Below are positions 31,294 to 62,780 of a DNA stretch of 64,000 nucleotides, piece after piece. The stretch is taken from positions 124,001-188,000 of the forward strand of contig NZ_CP090978.1 of NCBI RefSeq assembly GCF_021513275.1, written 5' to 3'. The translations under genes were made by a program, and so were the position numbers. The first letter of the stretch is position 1. Each line of letters starts with the position of its first letter. This DNA comes from Paenibacillus hexagrammi (lineage in GTDB: Bacteria > Bacillota > Bacilli > Paenibacillales > NBRC-103111). The notes beneath the pieces were generated by a model, which had not been told where the DNA came from, searched no databases, and saw nothing but the letters and a program-made list of their open reading frames with translations.

Positions 31294-31406
31294 ATGCACA
31301 TCGGAGTGGATTTAGATAACACAATTCTTGATGCAACCACGCCCCATTTATATTACTATAATTTATTCATGATGTAGGAGAATTGATCGAGCATGTATTC
31401 AAATAA
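31294..31406 (+). pseudogene. Internally deleted HAD-superfamily hydrolase
   Basis: The start MHIGVDLDNTILDATTPHLY has the HAD DxDxT nucleophile motif (DLDNT), behind AGAAAGGG. After 28 codons the frame stops. The next frame carries FIHDVGELIEHVFK and a stop at 31406, which looks like the tail of the same family. About two hundred residues are missing, so this is a deletion remnant, not a sequencing slip. Confidence 0.6.
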
Positions 31407-31444
31407 TGGAGGTATGGGTTCGCATGATGACGCAGGAAAATCAT

Positions 31445-32580
31445 ATGAAATTTATACTGGCACCAGACTCGTTCAAGGAGAGCATGACCGCCAGGCAGGC
31501 GGCTCAGGCCATGGAACGCGGAATCCGCAAGGTGTTTCCTGAAGCGGAATGCGTCCTCGTTCCGATGGCCGACGGAGGAGAAGGAACGGTGGAGTCACTG
31601 GTCGATTATACGAACGGCTCCATGGTATCCGTCGAAATCATGGGTCCTCTTGGCGACAGGATTACAGCATCATACGGACTCTCTGGAGACGGTCAGACGG
31701 CGATTATGGAGATGGCGAGTGCCAGCGGCATTGGTTTGGTTAAAAAAGAGAAGCGAAATCCTCTGATCACCACGACCTTTGGAACCGGCGAAATGATCAG
31801 GCACGCGCTCGATCGAGGAGTTAAACGAATGATTATGGGGATCGGCGGCAGTGTGACCAACGATGGGGGGCCGGCATGCTGCAGGCGCTGGGTGTTTCAT
31901 TCCGTGATTCGAAGGGTAGGGAACTGCCCTTTGGAGGAGGGGCGCTCGGAGAACTGGAAACCATAGATGTCAGCGGACTGGATGGCAGACTTCAGGATGT
32001 AATTTTTGAAGTCGCTTGCGACGTCACCAACCCCCTGACCGGTCCTAACGGAGCATCGGCTGTATTCGGGCCACAAAAAGGGGCGACACCGGAGATGGTC
32101 GCAGCTCTCGAGCAGAGTCTTGTCCATTTTGCAAAGAAAATGAACGAGTTTCTCGGTATCGACATCGCCTCGGCGCCCGGCGCGGGTGCGGCAGGGGGGC
32201 TTGGAGCTGGGCTGATGGCGTTCTTGAAAGCTGAACTGAAGAAAGGCGTCGATCTGGTCATAGAGTATACCGGGCTGGAGCAGAAAATCGTGGGAGCCGA
32301 CTACGTATTTACCGGTGAGGGCAGTATCGATGGACAAACACTTTTCGGAAAAACGCCGTTGGGCGTCGCTTCCGTCGCATCTACCCACGATGTACCTGTG
32401 ATTGCTTTTGCGGGCCGGGTTGGCGAAGGAGTGGAACCGCTGTACGATCGTGGATTTACGGCGATAATCGGAATTTTGCGGGAGTCCTCATCACTGGAGC
32501 AGGCGCTCTCAGCAGGTTCTGAGAATCTCTCCTACGCTGTCTACAACGTTTGCCGCCTTCTTCAGCGGAGGAATAAGTAA
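31445..32580 (+). CDS. Glycerate kinase, one frameshift
   Basis: About 378 residues when repaired. It phosphorylates glycerate with ATP (GlxK/GarK family). The N-terminus is MKFILAPDSFKESMTARQAA. PMADGGEGTVESLV and ACDVTNPLTGPNGASAVFGP, KGATPEMV and DYVFTGEGSIDGQTLFGKTP are family hallmarks. The frame breaks at the G-run 31865-31870: six G are seen and seven restore SVTNDGGAGMLQALGVSF. As written it is split into readings ending at 31966 and 32580. ATG 31445 follows CAGGAAAATCAT. Terminator at 32755. Confidence 0.88.
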
Positions 32581-42493: not shown

Positions 42494-43534
42494 ATGGATC
42501 GAGCATTCGCATCAAAATTCGCCAAAAGCGTGTTCCTCACCGTATGCGGGTTAGTCATATTGATGGGCATCGGATCAAGAATGTTTACGCATGTTGATTT
42601 GGCTTTGTATGGATACATGGTAGGCACGGTTGTGTTCGTATGCGGGTTCTTTTACCGCTTTATCGCGTGGGGAGAGCGTCCCCCGACCAAGATTATTTTG
42701 AAAAAAGGCATCAAGCTGTTGTTTCGCAAAAGCACTCCTCAGACAGCCACAGAGCATCTGCTCACGTACCGGTTCATCTGGAACCGCGGCTGGTATCGCT
42801 GGACGCAGCACGTGCTGCTGGGATGGGGCTGTGTGCTATCGGCATTCGTCACCTTCCCTCTCGTATTCGGTTGGATGTACTTCACGATGAGCGAGAACGG
42901 AACCTACACGGTTGTGGGCTTTGGCATCAACATCATGAAAATCAAGGCGGACGGCATGCTCGGATTTCTGTTCTACAACGCTTTGAACATTACGGCTTTC
43001 ATGGTCATCGGCGGTGTATGTATGGCGCTGTACCGCAGAATCAAGAACATGCAGGCGAGAGCTGAGCAGACGCTGATTTATGATTTTCTTCCTTTATATA
43101 TGCTGCTGTTTGTCAGTGTTACGGGGCTAGCGCTCACCTTCTGCAACATCTTCCTGCATGGCTACGGCCATCCGGTTGTGACGCTGATTCATCAATGGTC
43201 AGTGATCGTGACGCTCATCTATATTCCTTTCGGTAAATTGGCGCATATCCCGTTCCGTCCCATGAGCGTGTTAGCAAGAAATTACCGTCAGCATTACGCA
43301 GAGCAAGCGACCAAAAGCTGCAAGGTATGCGGCAACGGCTTCGTCTCGGTGGAGCAGTCCAATGACGTAATCAACGTGCTGAAGGTTAACGATATCGAAT
43401 TCAAGACCGAAGAAGGCTTCCATTTGGCTGAACTGTGTCTGCCATGCCGCCGCAAATACAGAATGTCTCGCTTTACCGGAATTCCGACTCACCAGATTCG
43501 CGTCAAGGAGGCCAACCAGAATGCCAAAGGATAA
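42494..43534 (+). CDS. Membrane cytochrome b-like subunit with a C-terminal CxxC/CxxC domain
   Basis: About 346 residues and five or more helices. It has His residues that could bind two hemes (TQHVLLGWG; IFLHGYGHPVVTLIHQWSV; FGKLAHIPFRP), as in NarI-type quinol oxidases. The cytoplasmic C-terminus carries CKVCGNG and CLPCRRK, a possible zinc or iron site facing the molybdoenzyme. It is the first gene of the operon, overlapping the NasC-type gene by 14 bases. It is inferred to oxidise menaquinol for nitrate reduction. ATG 42494 is preferred; ATG 42485 is only 2-3 bases after AGGAG. Confidence 0.72.
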   Translation: MDRAFASKFAKSVFLTVCGLVILMGIGSRMFTHVDLALYGYMVGTVVFVCGFFYRFIAWGERPPTKIILKKGIKLLFRKSTPQTATEHLLTYRFIWNRGWYRWTQHVLLGWGCVLSAFVTFPLVFGWMYFTMSENGTYTVVGFGINIMKIKADGMLGFLFYNALNITAFMVIGGVCMALYRRIKNMQARAEQTLIYDFLPLYMLLFVSVTGLALTFCNIFLHGYGHPVVTLIHQWSVIVTLIYIPFGKLAHIPFRPMSVLARNYRQHYAEQATKSCKVCGNGFVSVEQSNDVINVLKVNDIEFKTEEGFHLAELCLPCRRKYRMSRFTGIPTHQIRVKEANQNAKG

Positions 43535-45696
43535 ATTTTTTAAAGTCATCGCTAATAAAAACCATCCGAATGAAGAGCTGGTTCCCACACACTGCTCCTA
43601 CTGCGGGATGCAATGCGGGATGAACCTTCGTGTAGATAAATCAACGAATACCATTATCGGCGTTGAGCCGAGATATGACTGGCCCGTTACCCTAGGCAAA
43701 ATGTGTCCGAAAGGCGTAACCGCCTATCAACAGACCAATCACGATGACCGCTTGCTGCGCCCGTTGATCCGTGATGACGCTTCGCTCAAAGGAACGAAGG
43801 AGGGTTTCCGGGAAGCCAGCTGGGAAGAGGCATACGACCTGATCGTGAAAAGATTTCAAGAGCTGCAGCACAAGCACGGCAAGGATTCGCTGTCCGTATT
43901 CAGCGGCGTTTCGATGACGAATGAGAAATGCTACCTGACCGGCAAATTTGCCCCGGGTTGCTCTGCAAACGCGCTACATCGACTACAACGGCAGGTTCTG
44001 TATGTCCAGTGCCGCTGCAGGCTTCCTCCGCAGTCTTGGCGTAGACAGAGGCTCGACGCTGCCATGGACGGATTTGCACGAGACGGATTGCTTGTTTATT
44101 GCCGGCAGCAACACGGCTGAATGCCACCCAACCTCGATGTTTCGGGTATGGGAAGTGCAGAACCGGGGCGGCTACCTGATCGTAGCAGATCCCCGTGAGA
44201 CGCCGATTGCCCGCCGTGCGGACGTCCATCTGGATTTGCGACCGGGTACGGACTTGGCGCTGGCCAACTGCATGGTCAACCTGCTGATTCAAAACGGGTA
44301 TGCCGACGAGAAATTTGTAGCCGACCACACCAACGGCTTTGAAGAGTTAAAAGAGGTTGTGAAGGAATTCACACCTGAATATACGAGCGAAATCACTGGC
44401 GTCGCCGCTGAAAAGCTGATCCGCGCTGCCGAAATTTACGGCAAAGCGCCCAATGCCATCGTCATGTTTGCCCGGGGCATCGAGCAGCAGCATAAAGGAG
44501 CGGATAATGTATCGGCTTACACGAATATGTGCCTCGTTACCGGCAAGATTGGCCGTCCGAAGGCGGGCGTGGCGACTTTCACCGGACAAGGCAATGGCCA
44601 GGGCGGAAGAGAACACGGACAGAAGTCCGACCTGCTTCCTGGTTACCGCAAGCTGACGAATCCCAAGCATGTGGAGGAAGTGTGCAAGGTATGGGGCATC
44701 ACCCCTGAAGAGATGCCTCAGCCCGGCGTATCGGCATATGAGATGTTCGAGCTGATGGAGCAGCAGACGATTCGCGGCTTGTACCTGCTCTGCTCGAACC
44801 CGGCGGTATCTGCGCCGAATCAGAATTATGTGCGCGCAGCGCTCAAGAAGCTCGACTTCATGGTGTGCGCCGACATTTACTTATCGGAATCGGCTGAATT
44901 CGCTGATGTTGTGCTGCCATCGGTCACCTGGTCCGAGGACGAAGGGACGGTAACGAATCTCGAAGGACGGATTATTAAAATCAACAAGGCGCAGGAGCCG
45001 ATCGGCGAATCGAAGCCTGACTGGCTCATCGAGGTTGAGCTGGCGGAGCGCCTTGGACGGGGACAGTACTTCCGGTATCTGAAGAGCGCCAGGGACGTAG
45101 CTGACGAGTTCCGCCTCGCTCGTTCCAAAGGCGGTTACGCCGATTACTACGGCGCAACCTGGGAGAAGATCGAGAAGCAAGACGGCGTCTTCTGGCCGTG
45201 CCGCAGTGAGGAAGACCCGGGAACGCCGCATATGTTCCTCGATCACAAGTTCTACCACCCAGACGGCAAGGCCAAGCTGTGCGCGCTGCCTTACAGACCG
45301 CCGGCCGAGGAGCCCTGCGAGCAGTATCCGCTGCGCCTGACGACAGGCCGGGTTGTATATCACTATCTGTCCGGGAACCAGACGAGAAGAATTCCTTTTC
45401 TGCGGGACATGTGCCCGGAGCCTTATGTGGAGGTTCACCCTGAAACAGCGGCTAAGTACAACATTCAGCATGATGAAGTCGTCCGGCTGTTCACTCGCCG
45501 CGGCGAGGCTTTCTATAAAGTGAAAATCATCGAAGCGATTCGCAAAGATACGGTGTTTGTACCGTATCATTTCGGACACGAGCAATCCATTAATCTGCTC
45601 ACGATCCCGGCGCTGGACCCGATGTCCCGCATGCCGGAATTCAAAGCCTGCGCAGCTCAAATTGAAAAGCAACCGGAGAGGATGAGCACCCGATGA
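43521..45696 (+). CDS. nasC: NasC-type molybdopterin nitrate reductase, one frameshift
   Basis: About 725 residues when repaired. The N-terminal [4Fe-4S] ligands are Cys25-x2-Cys28-x3-Cys32 and Cys62 (THCSYCGMQCGM; KMCPKGV). The bis-MGD region includes GRPKAGVATFTGQGNGQGGR followed by EHGQK, almost the B. subtilis NasC sequence. The C-terminal LTTGRVVYHYLSGNQTRR binds the second pterin. The frame breaks at CCCC 43951-43954: three C restore GKFARVALQTRYIDYNG. As written it gives readings ending at 44120 and 45696. No TAT signal, so it is cytoplasmic. NasC normally works in assimilation. Here a cytochrome b, ferredoxin and Rieske protein flank it, suggesting respiratory use. Confidence 0.87.
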
Positions 45697-58353: not shown

Positions 58354-58383
58354 GCTGTCAATAGGCGTCAGCCGAAAACAAAA

Positions 58384-58418
58384 CAAGCCGACACCGGTTA
58401 CATACCGGCGCCAGCTTG
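58384..58418 (-). terminator. Terminator of the ABC-GNAT-peptide operon
   Basis: CAAGC...GCTTG outer and CCGG/CCGG inner arms around TTACATA. On the minus strand TTTTGTTTTC follows. It may also work weakly for the plus-strand MFS gene. Confidence 0.75.
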
Positions 58419-58478
58419 CAGCATGGTGCTATTTCCGTTGCCCAGTGCGGACATGTGCATGTTCCCATTCCGTAACAT
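58398..58478 (-). CDS. Possible 26-aa peptide at the end of the operon
   Basis: A Met/Asn/Gly-rich reading, MLRNGNMHMSALGNGNSTML then QAGAGM, begins 15 bases after the GNAT-like gene stop and ends inside the terminator loop. The ribosome site is weak (GATGAAG). It may be chance. Confidence 0.25.
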   Translation of the reverse strand: MLRNGNMHMSALGNGNSTMLQAGAGM

Positions 58479-58492
58479 ATGAGCAGCTTCAT

Positions 58493-59024
58493 CTATTTCT
58501 TATAACGACGATCCCAGCGCCGGCAGTAAGTCTCCAATGCGTGAAAAGGTACTGTATACAGCGCCAAGTCATTGACAACAGATTTCGTACCGCCTTGCAA
58601 TACGCTTAACTTGGAGAACAACCGTTCCGATTCTTTCTCAGCGGAAGCTGAGGCCCAGAACTGAATCCGCTCCACGTCCGGGTTGCCTTCCTTGATCATC
58701 TCAACTAAGGCCAGCAGCCCTTGCACGAACAGTGACGTGTGTCTGAATTCTTCTTGTATAAAAGCAACCTCTACCTGGCAGACTTCACGGTCCTCATATT
58801 CATTCGCACCCGTTCCATAAACAAAACCTGCCGCACCGACGATCTCGTAAGGCTCTTCGCTAAAAATAAGCATAGCCTTTCCAAAGACCAACGGACTGCT
58901 GACAAAGCTGAGCTTCACAGCAAACGAATACGGCAGGTTTAGTTCATGGTCATGCTCCAGCAGGTATTTCACGTATTGCAAAAAAATCCATTTCAAACAC
59001 ACAGGGACGAAATTCAAACGACAT
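58493..59024 (-). CDS. GNAT-like protein B, likely frameshifted near its start
   Basis: About 176 residues. GNAT-like core IVGAAGFVYGTGANEYEDRE, VAFIQEEFRHTSLFVQGLLA, VERIQFWASASAEKESERLF, clearly homologous to the protein at 59183. ATG 59024 overlaps the peptide stop (TAATG), and the T-run complementary to 58980-58986, shortened by one, would join MSFEFRPCVFEMDF to LQYVKYLLEHDHELNL. As read, the main frame begins at TTG 59017. Translational coupling to the peptide suggests they act together. The catalytic R/QxxGxG loop is degenerate. Confidence 0.72.
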
Positions 59025-59125
59025 TACTTAGGTTGAACCCTTAAAACGTCATTGACGATGACCAGCTTACCGAAACCACTGCCTTTTTTGATATCTTTGT
59101 TACCAAATCCGATTGGTGGAAACAT
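59024..59125 (-). CDS. 33-aa peptide between two GNAT-like genes
   Basis: Starts MFPPIGFGNKDIKKGSGFGK and ends LVIVNDVLRVQPK. GGAGGAG lies 6 bases before the ATG, one of the best ribosome sites around. GFGNKD and GFGKLV form an internal near-repeat; net basic, no Cys. Its stop overlaps the next start (TAATG). Flanked by two homologous GNAT-like proteins and preceded by an ABC exporter, it is a good candidate for a modified and exported peptide. No family recognised. Confidence 0.6.
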   Translation of the reverse strand: MFPPIGFGNKDIKKGSGFGKLVIVNDVLRVQPK

Positions 59126-59182
59126 TCCATTCTCCTCCTTTTTTTGAGATTCCATCATAGATCTTACTACCTATAGTATACC

Positions 59183-59692
59183 TCAACGATATTTCCTAAG
59201 GAACCCCTGTATTTGGTGAATTTTCACACAAAATACCGTTTCTTGTCCGACATAACCGTCTCTAGTATGACTAACTTCGGCAAATTTTGCATAGAGTCTA
59301 CAGGTGTAGGTGTTTTCTGTTAATGCGGCAAGCTGCAGGTCCTCGACTTCCGGATGATGTTCTGCGATATGATCGACCAGATAGATGAGTCCTTTTACGA
59401 AGAGGCGGGTTCCTTGATGGGCCTTGTCGGAGAGAGCCATGTCCATAAAAGCAACATGCTTGTCCTTGTACTCCTGTTCGGGAGTCCCGTGGTAATACGC
59501 ACACACGCCGATGACTTGATTGCTGTCGTCTGAACTGTAGATCAAATAACCTTGGGTGATATATAAATAAAGCAAAGTTACCGCATCTATGGTGCTGATA
59601 GAGGGATGCAGACCAAATTTGTTCGTCAGAAAAAATAAGCTGACCTTGGCGAATTCCTCATCACTTTCGCATTGTTTCACATAAATGGGCAT
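59183..59692 (-). CDS. GNAT-like protein A
   Basis: 169 residues. Core NQVIGVCAYYHGTPEQEYKD, MALSDKAHQGTRLFVKGLIY, LVDHIAEHHPEVEDLQLAAL, TENTYTCRLYAKF. HQGTRLF is a weak acetyl-CoA loop. Homologous to protein B downstream (shared IxG.., EY.D, LFV.GL, LV..I). ATG 59692 is 9 bases after GGGGGAG. It begins 31 bases after the repaired end of the ABC gene. Probably modifies the small peptide or a shared substrate; inference from position. Confidence 0.72.
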   Translation of the reverse strand: MPIYVKQCESDEEFAKVSLFFLTNKFGLHPSISTIDAVTLLYLYITQGYLIYSSDDSNQVIGVCAYYHGTPEQEYKDKHVAFMDMALSDKAHQGTRLFVKGLIYLVDHIAEHHPEVEDLQLAALTENTYTCRLYAKFAEVSHTRDGYVGQETVFCVKIHQIQGFLRKYR

Positions 59693-59723
59693 ACCCGTCA
59701 TCTCCCCCGATCTTCATACAGCC

Positions 59724-61870
59724 TCATAAACGCTTTTGCAGCGTGTCTTCCAATACTTTCAACATCTGCGGATGGTCGGCCATTAATTGATGAAAAGAAT
59801 CCCGCCTCATCGATAGCAGAACGGAAGGAACCAAGGCTCTAACCGTCGCAGTTCGCGGAATGTTCCTTAGAGTGCAATCTCGCCAAAATGGTCACCGTCC
59901 TGCAGAACCGCCACCCTTCTCTCACCTTGATCCGGAATATGCTTCACGATCTCAAACTTGCCGCGTACGATGATGTAGAAGGTATTCCCTTCTTCCCCTT
60001 CACGTACGACGGCTTCGTTTTCTTTGCAAACCTCCGTGGTAAACAGCGCAGCAATCCCTTGAAGAACGGATAGTTCGATACCCTTGAAGAAGGGCAGCTT
60101 GGCAAGCCGCTCCACATCTACCGTTGCATGAAGCCCGTCCTGGGATAGGTGAAAGCCATGCTGTTTCTCCCAAAGGGAAGTATACAGACCATTCTGCTGC
60201 AAAAGCTCCGCATGAGTACCCGATTCTGCAATTCGGCCCTCTTTAAACACATGAATCCGATCCGCTTGAACGACGGATGCTAGCCGGTGGGTGACGGAAA
60301 TGATCGTTTGTTCCCCGCGAATTCGCTGAATCAATTCATTGATCTCGGCTTCAGTAGCAGGGTCCAGTGCCGATGTCACCTCATCAAGCAGCAGCAGCTT
60401 GGGATTCCTCAATAGAGCACGGGCGATCGCTATGCGCTGCCGTTCTCCGCCAGACAGAGAGCCTCCCTCATGGTGAACCCAAGTATCATAGCCCGCAGGC
60501 CAGCTCATAATGGTTTCATGAATGTTCGCCTGCTTGGCTGCTTCAACCATATCGGCTTCTGTAGCTTCGGTTCCATCTAGCAGCAGATTGTCCCGAACCG
60601 TCGTATTGAATAAGAAGGTCTCCTGTGTCACCAGCACCGCTAGCTTTCTGAAGGATGACTCGCTAACCGTGCGCAGATCATAATCATTGATCTCTACCGT
60701 GCCTAACCCCGGGTCATAAAAACGCGATAGCAGCTGAAGCGCTGTGCTTTTGCCTGAACCGCTTGGACCGACAAAGGCTACATAGCTCCCAGCCGAAATG
60801 TGCAGGCTAACGTCACGCAACTGATCGGATTCCTCGGTGTAGCCGAAGGTAACCTGATTCATTCCGATGGAGGTTAGAGCAGGCGGTAGTTCTACTGGGG
60901 TAGACGCTTCTGAAACACTCGGCTGCTGCTCCAATATTTCTCCTACACGCTGAAAACTAATGCCTGATTCTATGAGATTGGGAATGAGGAAAGATAGATT
61001 AGAGCCAGCTTGCCCAACACTCATAAAAAGGGTGAAAAAGGCCATAAACCCGCCCACGGTCATCTGATCATGAAATATGAGATAGCCACCGAAGCCGATC
61101 ATCATCCCGTTTAAAATAAGCAGCGCTGTAAGAGGAAGCCGTTCCATGAAAGAGTTCGTCATATGCAGCTTAAAGCCAAAGCTAAACAAATCCTGAATTT
61201 GCTGGCGTGCCCGCTCTTGGAATCTTTTTTGCTGATGCAGGCCTTTAATGGTTCTATGTCCTTTGACCATCTCGTCAATCGTATTGGAGAAGCGTTCCTG
61301 GGCTTCTTTAAAATTCATATTGGCTCTCTCCGCACGTGTCTGCAGCAGCCTTGGTCCGACAAACATCAAGGTGGAACAGACAAGCATGGCCAAGGTCAGC
61401 TTCCACTGGATAGTTAGCAACATGATAAGTCCAAGCAGAACACTAAGGGATTCTTTTAAAAAGTAGGGAGAGGAGACCCGAACGACTCGTTCCATGGAAG
61501 CCATATCACTTGAAAACCGGGTGACCAAATCGCCTACTTTATAGCGCTGGTAAAACGGGAGCGACTGCTTTTGCAGGTGGAGAAACAGGTCGAGCCGAAG
61601 CTTGCGAATGACCCCGCCGCTTAGCTTGCCAAGCGAATAATCCCCAACGGCGCCGGCACAAATATTCAGTAATCCTCCAACAAGCAGAACACCTAAAATG
61701 ATCATAAACACTTGAAAGTTCTTGGGCGTAAATGCCTCATCCACCAAATATTTGAGGCTTAACGGAGCAGCCACTGAATAAGCGACCTCAATCAGAATAC
61801 TAATGATAAACAGACTGAACAGCAGCTTGTATTGGGTAAAATGGCGCAGCATCATCTTTACAAAATTCAT
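59724..61870 (-). CDS. ABC exporter with a C-terminal cyclic-nucleotide-binding-like domain, one frameshift
   Basis: About 715 residues when repaired. Residues 1-310 form a six-helix exporter domain (KLLFSLFIISILIEVAYSVA; LPFYQRYKVGDLVTRFSSDM). The ATPase has Walker A VAFVGPSGSGKSTALQLL, signature GGSLSGGERQRIAIARALL, Walker B KLLLLDEVTSALDP and the H-loop SVTHRLA. After 585 comes a Crp-like domain (NTFYIIVRGKFEIVKHI; DGDHFGEIAL). The frame stops there at 59867, but one missing base restores RNIPRTATVRALVPSVLLSM and a normal domain end at 59724. No C39 peptidase. First gene of the peptide operon. Confidence 0.88.
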
Positions 61871-61975
61871 CGTCATCTCCGCCTTCCATTATCCCTAGAT
61901 TACCTTAGATTCTTAGGGCTGTAAACGATTCAGACCCTAGCACTCTAGATTATAGAAGCCGTACTGAAAATGAAA

Positions 61976-62018
61976 ACGGACATCGCTCCGAATCGTTGCA
62001 TATCCGGCCGATGCCCGT
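61976..62018 (-). terminator. Terminator of the propeptide-like gene
   Basis: ACGGACATCG (61976-61985) pairs with CGATGCCCGT (62009-62018) with one mismatch. On the minus strand TTTTCATTTTC follows. Confidence 0.7.
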
Positions 62019-62069: not shown

Positions 62070-62780
62070 TTATCGGGTTTGCAGCGATATCACGTTGCCA
62101 GTCAGCGCATGAATCATGATCGGCTGCGCAGCGGAATGAGATATTGCGCCGGAGAAGGTGACGACATAGACAAGCGGTGTGCCGCTTCTGGTGGGGAGGT
62201 AGTAGGCGGACACCTCGGGCTTGGAGTCGGTGAAAGCCGCAAGCTGATGGGGCGAAGACAAGGCTGCCCGCTGCAGGGCCTGCTGTTTCGATATGGCTGC
62301 TACCATGGGTCGGTTAAACAGCTGCTTGTTCAGGCTCGGATAGATGGTGCCGGTCAACCGTTTGACGACTCCGCGTGTATCGATTTCCATAATCAGCTCG
62401 TCCCCCCATACAGGAGTCCCGAAGAGAAGATGCTGCAGGCGGACAAAGCTCACGCCTTCCGCTGAGGTAACCACCTCCGCGATTCGCAGTTCCTTGTGGG
62501 GATCGCGAATGCCATACACGTTTTTGAGACGATCCATGAGCTCGTAGGCGATATAGGGGACCGAATGCTTCGAGGGAACTGTCAAATTGCCGATCAAAGC
62601 AGCGGGAGTGCCGGTAGCCTCATTCCATTCTATTTTCATAGCTTGTCCGGATGTGCCTTGCAGCTGCCGAAGAGCGCCTGGAGCATCCTTGGGGACTCCT
62701 GCTGCGGCGAGGAATATAGAGCTGGCGGCGACTAGGCTAGCGCCCAGCCAGTACCCCCTTTTTCTAGTAAACAATTTCAT
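62070..62780 (-). CDS. Secreted FTP/PepSY protein: stand-alone M4-protease propeptide
   Basis: 236 residues. Signal peptide 1-32 (GYWLGASLVAASSIFLAAAG). An FTP domain at 75-120 (IAYELMDRLKNVYGIRDPHK, ELRIAEV) with SFVRLQHLLFGTPVWGDELI and a PepSY domain (QALQRAALSSPHQ; GTPLVYVVTFSG; IMIHALTGNVISLQTR) match thermolysin-type propeptides. The protease part that should follow is absent: stop at 62070, then a terminator. ATG 62780 lies 7 bases after GGAGG. It may be an inhibitor or foldase acting in trans, or a truncated protease gene. Confidence 0.8.
   Translation of the reverse strand: MKLFTRKRGYWLGASLVAASSIFLAAAGVPKDAPGALRQLQGTSGQAMKIEWNEATGTPAALIGNLTVPSKHSVPYIAYELMDRLKNVYGIRDPHKELRIAEVVTSAEGVSFVRLQHLLFGTPVWGDELIMEIDTRGVVKRLTGTIYPSLNKQLFNRPMVAAISKQQALQRAALSSPHQLAAFTDSKPEVSAYYLPTRSGTPLVYVVTFSGAISHSAAQPIMIHALTGNVISLQTR

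Follow-up and report, generated by a model that had tools for sequence, protein, structure and literature searches.

A conserved small peptide gene associated with a pair of GNAT-fold genes and an ABC exporter in Paenibacillales

Background

Whether a short open reading frame enclosed by larger genes encodes a functional peptide, and what its neighbours may do with the product, is the question raised by a locus on the minus strand of a 64,000-nucleotide stretch of the Paenibacillus hexagrammi genome (assembly GCF_021513275.1, contig NZ_CP090978.1, positions 124,001 to 188,000; this whole stretch is hereafter referred to as the window). An ATP-binding cassette (ABC) exporter gene with a cyclic nucleoside monophosphate (cNMP)-binding domain is followed there by a gene for a protein with the fold of the GCN5-related N-acetyltransferases (GNAT-A), an unannotated gene for a peptide of 33 amino acids (aa), a second GNAT-fold gene (GNAT-B) and a terminator. 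A sequence-only reading of the window had regarded this as the layout of a small ribosomal peptide that is acylated and exported, yet belongs to no known class. Comparison with related genomes shows that the GNAT-pair peptide set is real and conserved, and to all appearances it is undescribed.

Gene organisation of the locus

All the parts of the proposed order (exporter with Crp-like domain, GNAT-A, peptide and GNAT-B) were found on the minus strand, with the following features.

61949..61976, minus strand: candidate sigma-A-like promoter TTTTCA-16-TATAAT, 5' of the ABC gene (consensus scan, 10 of 12 matches; as a class, such sites are not above chance)
59724..61876, minus strand: ABC exporter with a C-terminal cNMP-binding (Crp-like) domain (Pfam; comparison with intact relatives)
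59183..59701, minus strand: GNAT-A, 172 aa, GNAT fold (sequence motifs; model with a predicted local distance difference test score, pLDDT, of 95.3)
59175..59180, minus strand: TATACT at the site of a conserved -10 box, a likely internal promoter for the peptide gene and GNAT-B
59134..59140, minus strand: ribosome-binding site AAGGAGG of the peptide gene
59024..59125, minus strand: gene of the 33-aa peptide, MFPPIGFGNKDIKKGSGFGKLVIVNDVLRVQPK (unannotated; frame conservation)
58493..59024, minus strand: GNAT-B, about 176 aa, GNAT fold without the motif-B Tyr (relatives; pLDDT 92.1 for the model of a relative)
58383..58419, minus strand: intrinsic terminator with a 16-bp stem and a T-rich tail (folding z = -4.6)

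The ribosome site and the closing terminator, both anticipated from the sequence, are thus present, and the start codon of GNAT-B (ATG, 59024-59022) overlaps the stop codon of the peptide gene in the sequence TAATG, as had been noted. The suggested homology of the two GNAT-like proteins is borne out by an hhalign probability of 99.9 % over the whole length. An Rfam scan for an RNA element gave no match.

Conservation of the peptide gene

The gene of the 33-aa peptide is a real, conserved gene under purifying selection. GNAT-A, a peptide of 32-38 aa and GNAT-B occur in the same order in 8 other genomes among 30 genomes of the genus, with the ABC gene directly upstream in 7 of the 8, and in dozens of genomes outside the genus, a recurrence well beyond chance. 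The window peptide, when used as a query, matches its own genome and 5 of these 8, and none of the genomes without the pair. The arrangement ABC, A, peptide, B, in which the ABC gene is sometimes unlinked, is referred to here as type 1; 38 type-1 peptide loci were identified in the wider sample, including L080, L081 and L118 with only one GNAT gene beside the peptide.

The sequence-only reading had named as its refutation a frame that is lost in relatives while the GNAT genes persist. This was checked and did not refute it: the frame is conserved, and in close pairs the ratio of non-synonymous to synonymous changes (pN/pS) is 0.12 in frame, as against 1.42 and 2.27 when the other two frames are read. 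The peptide genes of L067 and L072, for example, differ at 17 bases, all of them synonymous. The type-1 loci and those of the second layout described below (type 2) have an ATG start in all 56 peptides and, in 48 of them, a Shine-Dalgarno match of 6 bases or more. In 32 of the 38 type-1 loci the peptide gene is preceded, at a distance of 28-66 bases, by a TATAAT box (mean 3.6 and maximum 8 in shuffled sequences). Conservation of this box implies that in type 1 the peptide and GNAT-B are probably under the control of their own promoter.

Two genomes carry the set in split form (L081 with G038:C70; L080 with L118), such that GNAT-A and a peptide lie at one locus and GNAT-B and another peptide at a second, accompanied by the ABC gene in one case. 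Lone GNAT-B-like genes were observed at L119, L120 and L142, with neither GNAT-A nor a peptide detected nearby. A long GNAT fusion at L139 was discarded as an artefact of a run of N.

Peptide families and their layouts

The peptides of types 1 and 2 are leaderless, 30-44 aa long and devoid of Cys, with a mean net charge near +4. They share the motif MxPxxP...KGSGFG...N[DE]xLR, and 54 of the 56 have N[DE]xxR near the C-terminus if S is accepted at the position of N. The genes of type 2 are arranged as B, (ABC), A, peptide, and the peptide (for example MFPPRTGLNGKGDRKPLSFADLLKLNEQVRVSEAK) is mostly downstream of the GNAT genes. Type 3 has the order ABC, GNAT, GNAT, and its peptide is a frame of 21-31 aa on the opposite strand. 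In a scan of type-3 loci, all the frames with a 9-base Shine-Dalgarno match (11 loci) begin with MG; their N-terminus is conserved (MGDPG, MGQSGC, MGAPAC) and their C-terminus varies. The type-3 peptides have a net charge near zero, and lysine is absent from 5 of the 14 listed. Candidates for more peptide types were seen at L097, L099, L100, L141, L143 and L144, among them MSSGMKINGNSKSFDPRTSASAKNPSETSRKA, encoded on the opposite strand, and MAIKPVTFNKNEGSKIKLGSKADPKDISSNNGNTRV, encoded downstream.

In 33 of the 38 type-1 loci the stop codon of the peptide gene and the start codon of GNAT-B overlap, which would also be expected of a regulatory upstream open reading frame that couples translation to GNAT-B and whose amino acid sequence has no function. 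Such coupling is, however, impossible where the peptide lies downstream (mostly so in type 2) or on the opposite strand (type 3), selection acts at the amino acid level, and the conserved -10 box suggests a separate promoter in type 1. The layouts of types 2 and 3, together with the amino acid selection, go most of the way to refuting this explanation, which was rejected and retains scarcely any credibility.

The two GNAT-fold proteins

Structural models of GNAT-A and of a relative of GNAT-B both show GNAT folds, and searches against the PDB returned 572 and 375 structure matches, respectively, at E-values of at most 0.001, the top ones being all or nearly all GNATs. Profile methods scarcely register the relationship: the Pfam family Acetyltransf_1 matches 10 of 61 GNAT-A proteins at an E-value threshold of 0.01 (best 0.00027) and 8 of 60 GNAT-B proteins at a threshold of 0.1 (best 0.0021), and an NCBIfam scan of GNAT-A gave no match of note.

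The homologues differ in their motif-B residues. GNAT-A has a conserved motif N..Y....LYxK that includes the motif-B Tyr; Tyr137 and Lys139 are found in all 61 sequences, Asn130 in 55 and Tyr132 in 59, whereas Tyr occurs in none of the 60 GNAT-B sequences at the position matching Tyr137. The invariance of Tyr137 and Lys139 and the conservation of Asn130 suggest that GNAT-A has retained catalysis.

The exporter and its co-occurrence with the GNAT pair

ABC_membrane, ABC_tran and a C-terminal cNMP-binding domain are the only meaningful Pfam domains of the ABC protein, and no N-terminal C39 peptidase domain was found in the Pfam scan. The phosphate-binding cassette of cNMP-binding domains has the motif FGE..ALL...PRxAT. 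The corresponding segment, FGEIALLRNIPRTATV, is intact in the relative at L122, and its halves lie in two frames in the window. The transmembrane and ATPase domains are like those of MsbA-like exporters (relatives of TIGR02204 and TIGR02203), but the protein scores far below the curated cut-offs and differs by its C-terminal cNMP-binding domain.

The distribution of the set was examined at three taxonomic levels. In the family sample of 105 genomes, 52 carry relatives of GNAT-A, and these genomes come from 14 of 22 genera. A broader GNAT profile detects at least one GNAT gene in 80 of 300 genomes of the order Paenibacillales and, in a phylum sample of 398 genomes, only in the genome of the window itself. 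A peptide profile of 50 type-1 and type-2 peptides, built largely from loci that it later matched, finds 43 of the 105 family genomes, and all 43 carry the GNAT genes (hypergeometric P about 6e-21); given the origin of the profile, the informative part is the absence of matches in the 53 other genomes. Thirty-five genomes have an orthologue of the ABC-cNMP protein that scores at least 650 bits, and GNAT genes are present in every one of them (P about 3e-15). About a dozen of the 35 have the exporter gene at another place in the genome, usually by itself and in two cases next to GNAT gene remnants. As the exporter co-occurs with the set even when unlinked, something leaving the cell is suggested. 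No plasmid-borne copies were found.

Small genes in tandem, two of them with a GNAT fold, also call to mind a module of the toxin-antitoxin kind, with a GNAT toxin, a neutralising partner and the peptide; GNAT toxins such as TacT and AtaT exist. The set, however, contains no DNA-binding antitoxin and is linked to an ABC exporter, and PADLOC has no match for the GNAT proteins or the peptide, which makes a module of this kind very improbable. A defence system was similarly rejected, the PADLOC output being restricted to generic ATPase and weak partial matches on the ABC protein.

Two variations in the surroundings of the set were observed. At L066 (5355-8903, minus strand) the usual place of the ABC gene, upstream of GNAT-A, is taken by a gene for a protein of 1182 aa with an MFS/TLC-like transporter region, HEAT repeats and two cNMP domains; as an MFS-HEAT-cNMP protein it was rejected as the ABC component, whose orthologue lies on another contig. 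At L125, L136, L138 and related loci of another Paenibacillales family, which have no ABC-cNMP gene, a divergently oriented 7TMR-DISM histidine kinase gene and a response regulator gene adjoin the pair and the peptide.

Frame breaks and neighbouring genes in the window

Two genes of the operon are interrupted in the present assembly. The open frame of the ABC gene ends at 59867, near which one base is missing in comparison with the relatives, and the sequence for the cNMP domain runs on in a different frame as far as 59724. The frame of GNAT-B is broken by one extra T in a run of seven at 58986-58980. Both genes are unbroken in relatives, in which the intact ABC protein has 708-724 aa. Two unrelated genes of the window, for a glycerate kinase (31406-32580, plus strand) and a molybdopterin oxidoreductase (43521-45696, plus strand), are each split alike into two overlapping frames; the breaks in the ABC and GNAT-B genes are therefore most likely assembly indels, and decay of the operon into pseudogenes in this genome is unlikely. 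Upstream of the operon and outside the set lies a gene for an FTP/PepSY-like secreted protein (62070-62780, minus strand).

Proposed function and alternative explanations

The set is tentatively interpreted, with confidence somewhat short of even, as a small ribosomal peptide system in which the peptide is modified by the GNAT-A/GNAT-B pair and exported by the ABC pump. The short leaderless peptide would be translated from a strong ribosome site of its own, and in type 1 it would probably also have a separate promoter. Within the pair, catalysis would be the task of GNAT-A, and GNAT-B, a homologue without catalytic activity, would act as its partner, the two binding and modifying the peptide as one complex. 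The modification would most likely fall on the N-terminal amine, since this group is common to all the peptides and lysine is missing from some of those of type 3; this holds if one chemistry serves all types. The product would leave the cell through the ABC exporter where its gene is present, as gene linkage and co-occurrence suggest, and a cyclic nucleotide would gate this step through the C-terminal cNMP domain.

Several observations weigh against this interpretation. No leader, protease or other enzyme of ribosomally synthesised and post-translationally modified peptides (RiPPs) was found. The loop that binds coenzyme A (CoA), with the consensus Q/R-x-x-G-x-G/A (PMC4964394), keeps its first residue in both GNAT families and has lost its glycines: GNAT-A has [QR]-x-x-R-x-F in its place, mostly as R-x-x-R-x-F (Arg at position 4 in 55 of 61), and most GNAT-B proteins have R-x-[TS]-x-[LVMI]-F. 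Judged from these residues, the donor may be other than acyl-CoA, or may be bound in an unusual manner. The peptide profile is drawn largely from loci that it recovered, and the P values for co-occurrence overstate independence because the genomes are related by descent. Further, in another Paenibacillales family the B-A pair is found in 12 genomes (with the peptide in 11) that have no close orthologue of the exporter; the core thus consists of the peptide and the GNAT pair, with the exporter as a frequent partner.

The loss of the glycines is nevertheless compatible with the use of CoA, as MtAAC(2')-Ic is an active enzyme despite its atypical loop (PMC4964394). The claim of an acylated and exported peptide stands in part: the conserved peptide is tied to the GNAT pair and the ABC-cNMP gene belongs to the set, but simple acylation by two acetyltransferases is doubtful, as both proteins have lost the loop glycines and GNAT-B also lacks the motif-B Tyr.

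The same loss in both proteins is what would be expected if the pair were pseudo-enzymes that hold the peptide and transfer no acyl group, the trio acting inside the cell as a complex for regulation or signalling, with the exporter as one target or partner. The small, leaderless peptide, whose sequence is strongly conserved and not variable within types 1 and 2, would suit such a role, as would the genomes with pair and peptide and no exporter, and the cNMP domain and the divergent kinase and regulator genes of the other family point to signalling. The conserved Tyr137, Lys139 and Asn130 of GNAT-A, however, argue for retained catalysis and the unlinked exporters for a product that leaves the cell, and such a complex is considered unlikely.

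The positive charge of the type-1 and type-2 peptides and the linkage to an exporter may instead be taken to indicate self-protection, in which an unmodified antimicrobial peptide is exported and the GNAT pair makes the producer immune through a change to the peptide or to its target inside the cell, in the manner of MccE-like GNATs; immunity through a GNAT is known for microcin C. Against this, pair and peptide stay together even in genomes in which no orthologue of the exporter was found, immunity would not call for two GNATs that divide the motif-B residues between them, and the type-3 peptides carry almost no net charge. Self-protection is thus regarded as improbable.

The interpretation as a modified and exported peptide can be taken further, to a new leaderless ribosomal class confined to Paenibacillales, with an obligate heterodimer of an active and an inactive GNAT, a donor other than ordinary acyl-CoA, export under the control of a cyclic nucleotide and one enzyme pair common to at least three peptide families. 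In this full form it is doubtful.

Comparison with known peptide systems

As in RiPP clusters in general, a conserved precursor-like peptide gene lies here beside GNAT-fold genes, the putative modifiers. The closest resemblance in content is to the nostolysamide and selidamide clusters (NpuA, NpuN). In these, the gene of a small ribosomal peptide lies with that of a maturase of the GNAT fold and, as a rule, with an ABC transporter gene; of the two GNAT domains in NpuN, one shows no clear CoA motif (PMC13060382). The present set is alike in the clustering of peptide, GNAT-fold protein and ABC transporter. It differs, by comparison with the published description, in having two separate GNAT genes at the type-1, type-2 and type-3 loci examined instead of one tandem protein. 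Neither GNAT has the CoA loop of that type. The peptides carry no NHLP or Nif11 leader, the window peptide has no match in Pfam or NCBIfam, and its relatives have 21-44 aa. No lanthionine synthetase gene was seen nearby, and the set is limited to Paenibacillales in the samples searched. It is not filed as a member of the selidamide/NpuN type.

The N-terminally acylated lanthipeptides microvionin, goadvionins and lipoavitides (PMC13060382) would be alike in chemistry if the acceptor is the N-terminal amine, but no lanthionine enzyme was found among the neighbours examined, and Cys is missing from the type-1 and type-2 peptides. The tandem GNAT enzymes Eis and VipF, with two GNAT folds and catalytic residues in one (PMC4964394, PMC13060382), show the same division of residues as GNAT-A and GNAT-B, which are here two genes tied to a peptide gene.

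No family match for the set was found in Pfam, NCBIfam or PADLOC, nor any description in the literature searched, which left out most subscription journals; to this extent the earlier view that it matches no known class is upheld. The set can be viewed as a variant among the GNAT-associated peptide systems, and there is a fair chance that it forms a class of its own.

Significance

The set appears to be common in the order and its peptide belongs to no family of the libraries searched, and hence annotation and genome mining have probably overlooked it. It provides a compact test case for the division of labour in paired GNAT folds and for the action of GNATs without the CoA glycine loop. If the product is exported, the set would provide small peptides or signals from a new source. 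The cNMP domain of the exporter, if the proposal is true, would tie the export of the peptide to cyclic nucleotide signalling.

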